NCBI GenBank assembly: GCA_002069965.1
Contig: MWCI01000021.1
Coordinates: 1 to 45,594, forward strand
From: Spirochaetes bacterium ADurb.Bin218
GTDB lineage: Bacteria > Spirochaetota > UBA4802 > UBA5550
Direction of reading: 5' to 3'
DNA length: 45,594 bases
In this document: positions 11,875 to 43,085 of the stretch, in pieces
Position numbering within the stretch: the stretch's first letter is position 1
Layout: every line of letters starts with the position of its first letter
Position numbers and translations under genes: made by a program
Notes under the pieces: model-generated
Seen by the model: only the letters and a program-made list of their open reading frames with translations
The model's database searches: none
What the model was told of the DNA's origin: nothing

Positions 11875-14121
11875 TTAATCAGAACTTAAATATTTTTCTA
11901 TATATTCTGTGAGATCTTTAATATTGCGCCTTATCATTGCCTTAAATTCCACAGGTATATTTTGATCTGCCACAACCTTGTAATAGTTGATTGCATCTTT
12001 AACTCTTCTCTGTTGAACAAACTCATCAGCTTTCTGAAGTAGTGGCTTATATTTATAAAATGAATACTCAAGGATATTTTTTTCTCTCGAAAGACTAAAT
12101 TCATCTGGCAATTTTTTGAAGTCAAAAGAGACTTTAAGTATGGGGAGCTCTTTTTTCTTTATTCTGTCAGGTGTGATAAACTTCTTATAAAATTCCAGTT
12201 CATCTCGTTTTTTATCATCAAGGGATTCCGAAAGGGATATTTCGCTGTCTTCCTGCCTCTTGTCCCCAAGTATTTCAAATTGTGAATCATCCTGTTTCTT
12301 TTTGTCATCTTTCAGAATTTTTTCAAATATCTCTTCATCCGTAAGTGTGCTGTCATCCTTTGGCTTTCCATATTCACTGAGAAGTTCAAAGTCATTGGGA
12401 TCCTCCTGTGCCTCTTTTAAAAGCTCCTTTTCCTTTTCACTTATTTTTTCTTCCGTTGGAACTTGTGCCTCTTGCTGCTCAGGCTCAAGTTTTAATTCCT
12501 CTTCTTTTTGTGTTGATTCCTCTGTCTCATGGGGCTGTGACTTTTCAGGGAATATTTCCTCTTCTACCGCAGGCTCTTGCAGTATTTCTTCCTGGAGCTC
12601 TTCAGGTTTTTCCTCAACTGCGCGAGCTATCTCCTCTTCAGTGAGAATTTCCTCTGGCAATTCCTCCTGCAAAGGCTCAGAGGGTATTTCTGTTTTATCT
12701 TGCAGTTCCTCCGCCTCCGGGAATGCTTCAACTTCAGGGAATATTTCCTCTTCTATCGCAGGCTCTTGCAGTATTTCTTCCTGGAGCTCTTCAGGTTTTT
12801 CTTCAACTACGCGAACTATCTCCTCTTCAGTGAGAATCTCCTCCGGTAATTCCTCCTGCAAAAGCTCAGAAGCTTCCTCTTGAATAATTTCCTCTGGTGT
12901 CTCTTTTTTTTCTTCTGGAACAATTTCTTCTATAATTTCTTCTGGTTTCTTAGGTTCTTCTAAATCTTCTATTTCCTCTGTCTGTGATATATCCTGTTTC
13001 TGTTCTTCAATTTGTTTTTCTTTTATTTCATTGAATTTTTCAAGAATGTCAATAACTGGCTTTGGATCAAATTGTACCGGTATAGGGGACTGGTATCTGG
13101 CCTCTATTATTTTTGGCTCAATTTGCGCTTCTGGTATTTTTATTGGCTCTATTTCATCTATCTTATTTTGTAGTTTTTCAATGGAGTCTTTTAGTTTGGT
13201 AAGCTTTTCAATTTCGTTTTTTATTTCATTGAGAAGTGCATTTTCCTTCTCAAGTTCTCTCTTGCTTACTTCCTCTTCTTTTATTTCCCTTATTCTGCTA
13301 AGCTCATTTAGTATTTTATCTCTTTCTGATGATATCTGGATAAATTTTTCTTTTAACTCCCTTAGCTCATTTTGAAGACTCTTGAATTCTTCAGAATCCT
13401 TTATACCTGACTTATCCTCAGGAGTTGATTTTAGTCTATCTATCTCCTCTTTGAGAGAGTTAAGGTTTTTTGATATATCCTCTGATATTTTTTCAGCAAT
13501 GCTTTCAGTTTGTAGAGATTTTTCTGGAATGGATATGTTTATAGTAGATGGAAGCTGTCCTTCGATTTTAACCTTTAGCTCTCCTCCTTGAGACTCCTGC
13601 AGTTTTGACTCTACTCTTTTTTTGAAGTCCTCTTCTCTTCTTTGTCGGAACCTGTTTAGATACTCAATATTTGCATTGATTTTATCTCTAACATCCTTAT
13701 CAAGAATTCTATCTCGAACGCCTTTAAAAAGAGAAATAGCTGTTTCAATATCGCCTTTCCGTGCATAAGCTTCAGAATTTAGCAATGTCCGCTTATATAG
13801 TCGAAATTTTGACCTATCCGTAATTATGTCATTTGCAGGGAAGGGAAGGCTAAAGGTGGAGGAGTCCTCGTGAAATGGAAATTTTTCACCAGAGGCTGAT
13901 TCTCTTTCCTCATGCGCTGGGGCTAAAGCCTCATCAGGGTATTCCTTTTCTATTGCTCTGTCAGAGGCACGCCTTCTAAAGATCTTTTCAGGATCCTCAA
14001 TTTTTTCAGGAGTTTTTTCCTCTTTCTCCAGCTCTGGTTTTGTTGCTTCAACAGATGAAAATAGCGACCAGAAGAGTGCCAGCAACAGGAGAACTAATAT
14101 TGTAATAAGAATTATATTCAT
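11875..14121 (-). CDS. Membrane-anchored Glu-rich coiled-coil protein with TPR-like ends
   Basis: Not assigned to a named family (748 aa). Residues about 1-22 are a single hydrophobic anchor. Residues about 105-165 form a TPR-like helical segment (AYARKGDIETAISLFKGVRD), followed by coiled coil at about 200-330 and a very acidic Glu/Pro-rich region at about 370-640. A second TPR-like segment at about 690-745 resembles the first: both share LL...AI..-K.V.D..I and a later NI..L. Two nearly identical 46-residue units occur in the acidic region. This architecture suggests a scaffold or periplasmic/cytoplasmic spacer protein. The Ser-rich frames on the opposite strand are mirror images of the Glu/Glu codons, not genes. 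Confidence 0.7.
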   Translation of the reverse strand: MNIILITILVLLLLALFWSLFSSVEATKPELEKEEKTPEKIEDPEKIFRRRASDRAIEKEYPDEALAPAHEERESASGEKFPFHEDSSTFSLPFPANDIITDRSKFRLYKRTLLNSEAYARKGDIETAISLFKGVRDRILDKDVRDKINANIEYLNRFRQRREEDFKKRVESKLQESQGGELKVKIEGQLPSTINISIPEKSLQTESIAEKISEDISKNLNSLKEEIDRLKSTPEDKSGIKDSEEFKSLQNELRELKEKFIQISSERDKILNELSRIREIKEEEVSKRELEKENALLNEIKNEIEKLTKLKDSIEKLQNKIDEIEPIKIPEAQIEPKIIEARYQSPIPVQFDPKPVIDILEKFNEIKEKQIEEQKQDISQTEEIEDLEEPKKPEEIIEEIVPEEKKETPEEIIQEEASELLQEELPEEILTEEEIVRVVEEKPEELQEEILQEPAIEEEIFPEVEAFPEAEELQDKTEIPSEPLQEELPEEILTEEEIARAVEEKPEELQEEILQEPAVEEEIFPEKSQPHETEESTQKEEELKLEPEQQEAQVPTEEKISEKEKELLKEAQEDPNDFELLSEYGKPKDDSTLTDEEIFEKILKDDKKKQDDSQFEILGDKRQEDSEISLSESLDDKKRDELEFYKKFITPDRIKKKELPILKVSFDFKKLPDEFSLSREKNILEYSFYKYKPLLQKADEFVQQRRVKDAINYYKVVADQNIPVEFKAMIRRNIKDLTEYIEKYLSSD
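12544..12870 (-). repeat. Direct repeat of about 138 bp within the coiled-coil gene
   Basis: Units at 12544-12681 and 12733-12870 are offset by exactly 189 bases, which keeps the reading frame (63 codons). They encode near-identical peptides containing LQEELPEEILTEEEI and EEKPEELQEEILQEPA. The 51-base spacer between them is not repeated. Recent tandem duplication of the 63-codon unit is likely. Confidence 0.8.
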
Positions 14122-14490: not shown

Positions 14491-14524
14491 CAGCTTAGGA
14501 AAGCTTTTTTGCTTTCTTAAGCTG
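14491..14524. terminator. Hairpin between convergent DUF1858 and glgX genes
   Basis: Arms 14491-14504 and 14511-14524 pair over 14 bp (one G-T) around a loop of six T. It begins 8 nt after the DUF1858 stop and its right arm covers the glgX stop codon. There is no strong T-run on either side, so it may act as a bidirectional stabilising or weak termination hairpin. Confidence 0.45.
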
Positions 14525-16646
14525 TGAGAATTATCATTGAATGTGCTTCCACTGTGATTTTTTCTCTTTCAATTATCGGCTCATCCTTTAGATATATATC
14601 CATACCTCTTTGTGCTGCTGTGTTTATTGACAATTTCCATCTACGGCCAGAGGGTGATTGAGGTAGCGAAAATACTATATCAGTGTTGGAGGGATTAAAC
14701 ATCATATAAAAATCAGAATCAGGGATCAAAAATATTTCCTCTGCATATGCACCGTTTATTAAGGCTGCTATGCAAAGCTCCTCATCATCCCAATCTGGAG
14801 TAGTGTTTTCAGGGGTTTTCCATTGAATATCCTCTGTAGTAAATTTCACCCCTTGTTCTCCTGTATAGAAGCGAATTGATCTCAGCATTGGATGTTCTTT
14901 TCTAAAAAGGATCATAGATTTTGTAAATTCAAATATATCTGAATTCTCCTGTAATAGATCCCAGTTTATCCAGGATATTTCATTGTCCTGACAGTAAGAG
15001 TTATTGTTGCCTTTTTGAGTTCTTCTAAATTCATCTCCAGAAAGGAGCATTGGCACTCCAAGGGATATAAATAGTGTTGCAATAAAGTTTTTTATCATCC
15101 TTTTGCGGATTTTTTCGATTTCTTGGTTATTAGTTGGGCCTTCCTCTCCCCAGTTGCAACTGAAGTTGTGATTTTCTCCGTCTCTATTGTCTTCTCCATT
15201 TTCCAGATTATGTTTGTTATTGTAACTTACTAAATCATTTAATGTAAATCCATCATGGCATGTAATGAAATTGATGCTCCTGCATGGAGACGTTGTGCTG
15301 TAAAGGTCAGAGCTGCCAGTTATTCTCGTTGCAAAGGCACCTTTTAATCCTTTTTCCCCACGCCAGAATCTCCTTACATCATCTCTGTATCGTCCATTCC
15401 ACTCTGCCCATCTTCCTGGAAATTTTCCTACAAGATAGGCTCCCCCTGCATCCCATGCCTCTGCTATTATCTTTGCATTTCGTAAAATTGGATCCTCTTC
15501 TATCCATTCAATGAGTGGAGGATTGCTTAATATCTCTCCCTTTTGGTCTCTTCCAAGAATTGAGGCAAGGTCAAACCTGAAACCGTCAACATCCATTTCA
15601 ATAAACCAGTATCTAAGGGCATCGAGGATAAACTGACGGACCAGTGGATGATTACAGTTTACAGTGTTGCCACAACCGGAAAAGTTTTTATAAAAACGTT
15701 TATCCTCATCCAGGATATAATATATGGAATTATCTATTCCTCTAAAGGAAAGGGTTGGTCCTCTGTGGTCCCCTTCATGTGTATGATTGAAAACAACATC
15801 TAAAAATACTTCTATCCCTGCATCATTAAAGGCTCTTACCATTTCACGAAATTCTTTCACTTGTTGCCCAAGAGTGCCAGAGGAGGAATAGCTGCCTTTT
15901 GGTGCAAAAAAAGCTATAGTGCTATAGCCCCAGTAGTTTTTGAGTCTCTCCCCTGTAAATGGGTTAATGTTGATATTCTCATATTCATCAAACTCCTGTA
16001 TGGGTAAAAGTTCAACAGCGTTTATACCAAGCTCTTTTAGATATGGAATTTTTTCGGTGAGACCTTTAAAAGTCCCAGGAAAATTTACCTTGGATGAGTG
16101 ATGGGCTGTAAAGCCTTTTACATGTAACTCATAGATTATGAGATCGTTTTCAGGAATACGGATTGGACTTTTAACTATCTCATTTCTTCCATTGATAACT
16201 ATACTCCGTGGAACATAAGGTCCACTGTCAACTGTAGAAAATGACTCAGCCTCATTGGAGACATTTAACTCTATACCGCAAGCTTTGGATAGATCCCATA
16301 TAAAATTGCCAGTTATTGCCCGAGAGTATGGATCTATCAAGAGCTTGTTTTCATTAAATCTATGACCATTGGCAGGATCATATTCCCCGGAAATTCTATA
16401 TCCATAGACTTGTCCTTCCGAAAGACCCTCAATCCATATATGCCACACATCTCCTGTTTTATTTAAAAAGGGATCAAGAGCTATTTCTGTAAAGTCAGAG
16501 TCAGGTTCAGAATTGTGAAAGAGTATAAGTTTAACCCCGGAAGCATTTCTGCTAAATATTGAAAATTGAACTCCATTGTTGTGAACATAAGCACCAAGAG
16601 GAGTTGGAAGCCCTGGTGCTGTTTTTAAGTTTTTATAATCAATCAT
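14517..16646 (-). CDS. glgX: Glycogen debranching enzyme (GlgX/isoamylase type)
   Basis: GH13 alpha-1,6-glucosidase of the GlgX/isoamylase group (709 aa), which removes branch chains from glycogen or limit dextrins in the cytoplasm. The N-terminal CBM48 (about residues 8-130) has the GVQFSIFSRNASGV and VYGYRISGEYDPANGHRFN segments. The catalytic barrel has conserved regions DVVFNHT, DGFRFDLAS with the nucleophile Asp, IIAEAWD with the acid/base Glu, and FITCHDGFTL. The length is normal for the family. AGAGGAA lies before the ATG at 16646. The upstream DUF1573 gene ends 32 nt away on the same strand, so co-transcription is likely although a functional link is not obvious. Confidence 0.92.
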   Translation of the reverse strand: MIDYKNLKTAPGLPTPLGAYVHNNGVQFSIFSRNASGVKLILFHNSEPDSDFTEIALDPFLNKTGDVWHIWIEGLSEGQVYGYRISGEYDPANGHRFNENKLLIDPYSRAITGNFIWDLSKACGIELNVSNEAESFSTVDSGPYVPRSIVINGRNEIVKSPIRIPENDLIIYELHVKGFTAHHSSKVNFPGTFKGLTEKIPYLKELGINAVELLPIQEFDEYENININPFTGERLKNYWGYSTIAFFAPKGSYSSSGTLGQQVKEFREMVRAFNDAGIEVFLDVVFNHTHEGDHRGPTLSFRGIDNSIYYILDEDKRFYKNFSGCGNTVNCNHPLVRQFILDALRYWFIEMDVDGFRFDLASILGRDQKGEILSNPPLIEWIEEDPILRNAKIIAEAWDAGGAYLVGKFPGRWAEWNGRYRDDVRRFWRGEKGLKGAFATRITGSSDLYSTTSPCRSINFITCHDGFTLNDLVSYNNKHNLENGEDNRDGENHNFSCNWGEEGPTNNQEIEKIRKRMIKNFIATLFISLGVPMLLSGDEFRRTQKGNNNSYCQDNEISWINWDLLQENSDIFEFTKSMILFRKEHPMLRSIRFYTGEQGVKFTTEDIQWKTPENTTPDWDDEELCIAALINGAYAEEIFLIPDSDFYMMFNPSNTDIVFSLPQSPSGRRWKLSINTAAQRGMDIYLKDEPIIEREKITVEAHSMIILTA

Positions 16647-16678: not shown

Positions 16679-17056
16679 TTATTCAGGGACATTGGCTATT
16701 ACAGTAAGCACAACAATACCTCTGTCTGGATCATTACTGTAGACAGAGATCGTTTTATGGATTTGTCCAGACCTTTCATCTGTGTATAATGTTATTTCAA
16801 TCTCACCACTGCCACCTGCAGGGATAGATCTGCTGGATACAACAGATCCTGTACAGCCTCACCCAGCCTTTACTCTATCTATGGTTAAAGTAGAGTTGCC
16901 TTTGTTATAGAATTTGAAAATGTGAGTCACAGCTGAATTTTTTTTTACATTACCAAAGTTGTATTCGGTATATTCAAAGACTATTTTTGATTTTCCATGG
17001 CAATGGATTGATATTAAAACTAAAGCAATAGCAGTAAGTAATCTAATAGCTTTCAT
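16679..17056 (-). CDS. DUF1573 exported protein with in-frame TGA, candidate selenoprotein
   Basis: Conventional reading gives 65 residues ending at TGA 16859-16861. Reading through gives 125 residues and a normal TAA at 16679-16681. The segment before the TGA contains FNFGNVKKNS-like family sequence (YNFGNVKKNSAVTHIFKFYN, IDRVKAG). The segment after it continues as GCTGSVV, SIPAGGSGEIEITL and TISVYSNDP, all DUF1573 hallmarks. The TGA stands where the first Cys of the CGCT motif belongs, so Sec would give a UGC redox pair. An N-terminal signal peptide (about residues 1-21) implies export. AAAGGA precedes the ATG by 5 nt. A nonsense mutation is the alternative, but the exact Cys position and an adjoining hairpin favour selenocysteine. 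Confidence 0.62.
16816..16856 (-). promoter_or_regulatory. SECIS-like hairpin just after the TGA codon
   Basis: On the minus-strand RNA the hairpin begins 2 nt past the UGA. The upper stem is 9 bp (16848-16840 with 16835-16827, one G-U) around a UAUC loop. If the closing G-C opens, the loop is GUAUCC. Lower helices pair 16851-16849 with 16821-16819 and 16856-16854 with 16818-16816, leaving bulges of 5 and 2 nt. A GU lies 18 nt after the UGA, similar to the spacing in E. coli fdhF as I recall it. Confidence 0.5.
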
Positions 17057-17113
17057 AGTTGTCCTTTTTAGTTATTTATATCTAAAAACACTTCAATTGG
17101 ATTATATATAAAT

Positions 17114-41849: not shown

Positions 41850-41957
41850 TAACCTTTGTGTAGTTTTTTTTGGGGATTTTTGATCCGATAATTATTTAAC
41901 ATAGCTTTGAGTTTTAGCACTAAATATAATTATATTTTGTATGAATAATTTTTTATA

Positions 41958-43085
41958 ATGGAGCAAAAGGTGAAGTGTATAATAAAAATGATTTTAATTT
42001 CCTTAGCAGCGCTTTTCATTGATTATTCTGTTATGGCAAATATTGCAAGAGCAGAGGATTCAATTCAATCTGCTGTGGAATTCAAGGAAGTCTGGGGATA
42101 CCTCATGCGTGGGGAGGAGAAGTATTTTGATGGGAATGAGCCAGTTACAGATGTATGTTACTTTGCCTGTGGTGTTAGCAATAGTGGTAGAATAAATACT
42201 AATGTCAATCCTCCATCAATCCCTGAACTGAATGGGCAAAAGCGGAGAATCCACATAGTGATTGCAGATTTAAATGGATACCAACTTATGAGGAAAGTTC
42301 TTAATCCTCAAAATAAAGAGAGAGATTTGCTTGTTGCTGATATAATTGAGGTCTCAAAAAAATTTGATGGGGTGCAGATAGATTTCGAGGCAGTATCTAA
42401 AGAGGATGCTGCAAATTTTCATGAATTTTTAAGCAAAATAAAAGAAGGTCTTGAACCAGATAAGATATTTTCAGTTGCCTTACCTGCAAGGGTTTCTTAT
42501 ATTGAAAATGATGCCTATGATTATGGAAAGATTTCGGGAATTGTTGACAAGGTGTATATAATGGCCTATGATCAACACTGGAGCACAAGCAAACCTGGAC
42601 CTGTAGCCTCTCTTTCCTGGTGCAGGGACATTGTCTCCTTTGCGAAGGAGTTTATACCTGTGGATAAGCTTATTATGGGCATTCCTCTTTATGGAAGACT
42701 GTGGGAAGAGCGCTACATAAAGGGGAAAACCGTGAAGGTGGTTGAATACAAAAAAGTAAAGGGTAGCAATAAAAAAACTAAGGTAAAAAAAGTTGTAAAA
42801 ACTGTTAAAATACCACCAAGAGTAGAAAAATTTAGCAAGTCTGTGAAAACAAAGCATCTTCCAGAGATAGCTTCCTCAAAGAAATGGAAACATGACTATT
42901 CCATAGATAAGGGTCTGTGTATAAAAAAAGATGATAGGCACTATTCTGCTGTTCTATATTGTGACGATCTTACTGCTATTAAAGAAAAATTTTTACTCTA
43001 CAAAGAACATGTTCAGTCAATAGGATTCTGGAGATTGGGCATGCAAAGCGATGAACTATGGAGGGAAATTACTGTATCACAATAA
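41958..43085 (+). CDS. GH18-family (YaaH-like) protein, exported, paralogue 2
   Basis: Second GH18 protein (375 aa), clearly a duplicate of the preceding gene. A signal peptide (about residues 1-32) replaces the anchor. The catalytic strand FDGVQIDFE (about residues 135-143) again has Gln in place of the middle Asp. It shares GPVASLSWCRDIV, MGIPLYGRLW and SIGFWRLGMQ. A Lys/Val-rich insert of about 55 residues (KGKTVKVVEYKKVKG onward) sits after the MGIPLYGR strand and is absent from paralogue 1. The ATG at 41958 has no ribosome site, whereas the GTG at 41970 has GGAG 6 nt upstream, so translation may begin four codons later. Confidence 0.82.
   Translation: MEQKVKCIIKMILISLAALFIDYSVMANIARAEDSIQSAVEFKEVWGYLMRGEEKYFDGNEPVTDVCYFACGVSNSGRINTNVNPPSIPELNGQKRRIHIVIADLNGYQLMRKVLNPQNKERDLLVADIIEVSKKFDGVQIDFEAVSKEDAANFHEFLSKIKEGLEPDKIFSVALPARVSYIENDAYDYGKISGIVDKVYIMAYDQHWSTSKPGPVASLSWCRDIVSFAKEFIPVDKLIMGIPLYGRLWEERYIKGKTVKVVEYKKVKGSNKKTKVKKVVKTVKIPPRVEKFSKSVKTKHLPEIASSKKWKHDYSIDKGLCIKKDDRHYSAVLYCDDLTAIKEKFLLYKEHVQSIGFWRLGMQSDELWREITVSQ

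Follow-up and report, generated by a model that had tools for sequence, protein, structure and literature searches.

The window, by which we mean the whole 45,594-nt stretch of DNA analysed here, belongs to a draft genome assembly of 3.03 Mb in 160 contigs. On its minus strand lies a short DUF1573 gene that begins with an ATG at 17056, ends with a TAA at 16681-16679 and contains a single in-frame TGA at 16861-16859 (Table 1). Translation with table 11 halts at this codon, the 66th, whereas read-through yields the product MKAIRLLTAIALVLISIHCHGKSK...VKAG-U-GCTG...IPAGGSG.... The Pfam DUF1573 model (PF07610) spans the read-through product over its full length (84.8 bits, gathering cut-off 26.1), so homology extends to either side of the TGA. 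An in-frame UGA with conserved coding sequence on either side, by which a bacterial selenoprotein gene is recognized, is present here. A preliminary description of this DNA had placed the TGA at codon 66 between DUF1573-like flanks without naming a strand; it was right, and the strand is minus. A plus-strand reading of 16679-17056 was rejected, as many stops close the frame. In the window TGA terminates 11 of the 33 main open reading frames, which means that the genetic code is not simply reassigned. The gene heads a conserved row: in 29 of the 41 loci compared the next gene downstream is glgX, in the same orientation, and 20 loci have the third gene after glgX. The window copy of this third protein matched no Pfam family, and one relative gave a weak TPR match. 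The protein and its orthologues have a low-complexity middle, with a long PE repeat in L127.

Table 1. Features of the DUF1573 locus, in coordinates of the window
Feature	Positions	Strand	Basis and remarks
DUF1573 selenoprotein gene (very probable)	16679..17056	-	125 codons; TGA at codon 66; TAA end; translation with TGA as U, PF07610, NF041425
Putative Sec-UGA, codon 66, first residue of the U-G-C-T motif	16859..16861	-	Sequence; TGA or Cys in that column in all aligned relatives
Predicted signal peptide ending in lipobox-like Cys19	17000..17056	-	Sequence; Cys in 21/27
Shine-Dalgarno-like AAGGA	17062..17066	-	Sequence; 5 nt upstream of the ATG
Candidate bacterial SECIS hairpin	16826..16849	-	9-bp stem, 6-nt loop GUAUCC starting 18 nt past the UGA
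glgX, glycogen debranching enzyme	14517..16646	-	TIGR02100, 787 bits; start codon 32 nt downstream of the selenoprotein stop
Protein with one N-terminal membrane segment and conserved C-terminal region	11875..14121	-	Third gene of the conserved row

When 148 related genomes were searched, DUF1573 with the TGA turned up at 36 places in 32 genomes, all of one order and together accounting for 32 of its 46 sampled members; matches to the TGA form outside the window reached E-values down to 1e-36. Such recurrence shows that the TGA in the window is not a matter of chance. The TGA occupies the identical codon in every copy inspected, even among relatives that are just 37-56% identical, and the motif in these copies is U-G-C followed by T, A or D, with L150 as the exception. 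At this locus (L150:4075-4416, G045:C234) the gene has two in-frame TGAs and reads UGR for UGC beside an intact-looking glgX; it is probably a decaying gene or lies on an error-rich contig. A further 66 loci come from other organisms, chiefly Bacteroidota with some Planctomycetota; where these have the motif they always encode Cys at this codon, and Cys is invariant at the TGA column among 26 aligned relatives. Orthologues with the same glgX neighbour also carry Cys, as CSC in G003 and G010 and as CGC in G031. The preliminary description had placed selenocysteine at the first Cys of the family's CGCT motif and had proposed asking whether homologues have Cys or Sec there. They have Cys in the non-TGA relatives and TGA in the others, which supports that placement. 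Most genomes sampled from this order, itself probably spirochaetal, probably encode a Sec-containing DUF1573 protein. The host genome of the window holds three genes for FlaA (PF04620), a spirochaetal family.

The machinery for selenocysteine insertion was another point on which the preliminary description had suggested a search, and all four genes were found in the host genome. On contig 13, selB (336 bits) comes immediately after selA (483 bits), tRNA-Sec (selC; 73.8 bits, anticodon tca) is on contig 17, and selD (388 bits) is on contig 1 with an in-frame TGA of its own. This selD (L117, G000:C1, ~41905-42831) is itself a predicted selenoprotein gene with the motif GAGUAAKIG; an ORF resembling a YedE/YeeE transporter lies upstream of it and one resembling aldehyde ferredoxin oxidoreductase comes after it. 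Across the order, selA was detected in 31 of the 32 genomes with the TGA form vs. 7 of the 14 members without it (Fisher p 0.0004, on counts not corrected for kinship). The one genome with the TGA form and no selA match, G012, is 81% complete.

The TGA in the window is followed by a hairpin that stands out from synonymous shuffles (p 0.01-0.02 in the hairpin search; energy z -1.9) and that can also be drawn in an alternative register of 10 bp with the loop UAUC. Its pairing register shifts between members when judged by eye, and synonymous-shuffle tests were therefore used in place of a single-register covariation test. When the 36 nt from +9 to +45 were folded and compared with synonymous recodings, the mean energy z was -1.44 in 26 TGA genes, all of them negative, compared with -0.09 in 69 Cys homologues, a set that here includes the TGA gene L022; control stretches of the TGA genes gave means of -0.59 and +0.22. 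With L022 moved to the TGA set, the hairpin scan returned a median shuffle p of 0.05 for 27 TGA genes vs. 0.455 for 68 Cys genes. The hairpin after the TGA is hence stronger than in synonymous shuffles in the TGA genes and absent in the Cys homologues. The bSECIS model calls for an apical loop 16-37 nt from the UGA with a G among the first two loop positions (PMC13188914), and the window hairpin satisfies these rules (loop GUAUCC, 18 nt). The hairpins of most relatives, 18-22 nt from the UGA, are just as strong but have loops such as UCC, UCA and UUUCC, which lack the early G. Among them, L013, L018, L025, L036, L039 and other Sec-type loci show a strong hairpin at ~+18 to +36 after the UGA with the loop G missing. 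In an Rfam scan of the window and the DUF1573 region neither a SECIS element nor any other family scored above cut-off.

Taken at face value, a TGA at which table 11 translation ends at codon 66 could be a nonsense mutation in a decaying gene, and L150, with its second TGA and its UGR, shows that such decay does occasionally occur. However, the same TGA stands in 32 genomes in intact frames with the protein sequence conserved on both flanks, and Sec machinery and a downstream hairpin are present. This recurrence in a conserved frame refutes the pseudogene reading in practice, and we regard it as very improbable. An error of sequencing or assembly at 16859-16861 is more improbable still; the window does come from a draft of 160 contigs, but independent genomes have the same TGA. 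The preliminary description had held such an error to be unlikely, and the codon's occurrence in 31 other genomes now makes it untenable. Equally hard to credit is a genome-wide reading of TGA as some other amino acid, such as Trp under code 4. We found no evidence in its favor, the ordinary TGA stops in the window contradict it, and the column holds Cys, not Trp, in the non-TGA relatives. Overall, what looks like a premature stop almost certainly specifies selenocysteine, and from the sequence evidence we put the probability that this is a genuine selenoprotein gene at about 0.97. That it encodes a functional exported selenoprotein of the DUF1573 family is also very likely, if slightly less so.

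Selenocysteine in this family is not new. Two reviews count DUF1573 among the selenoprotein families and give UGC as its motif (PMC9312934, PMC13188914); for this entry the 2022 review cites a 2007 paper on an Olavius algarvensis symbiont. OS_HP2, with pfam07610 and a UxC motif, is in the 2008 GOS paper (PMC2398784). DUF1573, the same family as OS_HP2, has accordingly been listed among prokaryotic selenoprotein families since 2007-2008, and an NCBIfam model, NF041425, is named 'OS_HP2 family (seleno)protein'. The suggestion in the preliminary description of a new or little-noted selenoprotein family does not hold against these published tables and this model. The window protein matches NF041425 at 83.1 bits over positions 3-97 of 98, which is below the curated cut-off of 100, and all 30 aligned members match it at E<0.001. 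On its sequence it is to be classed as a homologue of OS_HP2 and not as a certified NF041425 member. It shares with the proteins of the O. algarvensis Delta 1 symbiont and the GOS metagenome the Pfam domain, Sec as the first residue of U-G-C and a small single-domain build, but differs in its lineage (probably Spirochaetota), its score below the NF041425 cut-off and its conserved glgX neighborhood. The Cys-type proteins of Bacteroidota and Planctomycetota (CGCT) likewise share the domain, with an invariant Cys at the homologous position (26 aligned), whereas their genes have a Cys codon for the TGA and no hairpin above synonymous expectation after it. What is new here is the lineage, probably Spirochaetota, the conserved glgX operon, and a paralogous clade associated with ArsR, ArsP, thioredoxin and VKOR-DsbA. 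Within the literature searched, no paper treats the glgX or the ArsP/VKOR contexts together with DUF1573.

The product is probably exported and lipid-anchored, judging from its predicted signal peptide and the Cys at column 19, the lipobox position, which is shared by 21 of the 27 aligned members that reach that column; this agrees with the exported protein envisaged in the preliminary description. AlphaFold2, applied to the window protein together with Cys relatives, predicts a confident all-beta domain (pLDDT 89.6) in which residues 66-68 (UGC) sit in a turn between predicted strands 57-64 and 69-73. Fold matches of this model in the PDB are Ig domains of the PapD/ASH/HYDIN type, the best being 2qsv and 2e6j (TMq 0.70 and 0.65), and by sequence the protein matches the Pfam family HYDIN_VesB_CFA65-like_Ig at 50.4 bits; a PDB search by sequence gave weak, uninformative matches only. 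Domains of this type have the predicted fold in common with the DUF1573 product, but theirs is a structural or adhesive role. A precedent is CsgC, a periplasmic protein of Ig fold whose CxC pair, at the junction of a loop and a strand, has a reduction potential of -139 mV and which its authors likened to nDsbD (PMC3173608). Both are Ig-like and periplasmic, and the CxC of CsgC lies at a loop-to-strand junction, as predicted for the DUF1573 motif. However, CsgC uses Cys and nDsbD a Cx5C, the likeness extends to fold class and motif only, and neither is among the 50 PDB fold matches listed.

A possible mechanism can be outlined on this basis. SelB, guided by the hairpin just past the UGA, would insert Sec at codon 66, and the product would be exported and probably lipid-anchored, presenting one Ig-like (PapD/ASH-type) domain with Sec66-Gly67-Cys68 in an inter-strand loop. 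Sec66 would then attack a thiol or disulfide of the partner, or form a mixed bond with it, and Cys68 would resolve this to leave a Sec66-Cys68 selenenylsulfide, much as has been proposed for the CxC pair of CsgC. Given that the gene does encode a selenoprotein, our analysis makes it reasonably likely that the product is a membrane-anchored periplasmic Ig-fold thiol/selenol oxidoreductase with U-G-C as its redox pair. The glgX product, a cytoplasmic polysaccharide enzyme, gives no pointer to redox chemistry.

Pointers of this kind come from a second, paralogous clade of TGA-bearing genes (L151-L156; six loci, 100/100 support), in which the operon consists of an ArsR regulator, an ArsP_1 permease and the DUF1573 selenoprotein, followed, varying by locus, by Thioredoxin_3, DGC, thioredoxin, DsbD_TM or a VKOR-DsbA fusion. 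At L153 (6686-7888) an SBF-family transporter, ACR3-like by eye, lies directly upstream of the TGA-containing DUF1573 gene. In the Cys-type relative L159 a redoxin/thioredoxin-like gene comes next. The partners of the sister-clade proteins are probably the thioredoxin and VKOR-DsbA proteins encoded in the same operon. These surroundings can also be read differently, with a true selenoprotein whose U-G-C would hold a metal or metalloid (arsenite, Hg or Cu), either to sense or to sequester it, and would not engage in catalytic redox exchange. Soft metals are well bound by a selenol that has a thiol beside it, which suits such a role, as do the ArsR and ArsP_1 genes beside the paralogous clade and the additional ACR3-like SBF-family transporter at one locus. 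Nonetheless, thioredoxins, a DsbD_TM protein and VKOR-DsbA in the same operons fit redox exchange, and the glgX-linked form has no adjoining metal gene. Trigonal As(III) sites usually have three ligands, whereas just two soft ligands are conserved here. We consider metal binding, the main rival reading, unlikely, and the thiol/selenol oxidoreductase remains our preferred function.

More broadly, and only tentatively, DUF1573 may be a general family of Ig-fold periplasmic selenol/thiol oxidoreductases with two dedicated branches in this order, one serving an ArsP-type metalloid operon through a VKOR-DsbA/thioredoxin relay and the other, that of the window, tied to an operon with glgX and the membrane-anchored protein. 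If true, SECIS elements that mostly lack the canonical loop G would imply variant recognition by SelB. Automatic annotation would truncate or drop the gene in the window, and the curated NCBIfam model misses it. For the uncharacterized DUF1573 family, the linkage of the sister clade to periplasmic disulfide machinery and an ArsP-type permease provides a functional lead, and the conserved alternation of Sec and Cys at a single position opens the putative catalytic site to direct testing.
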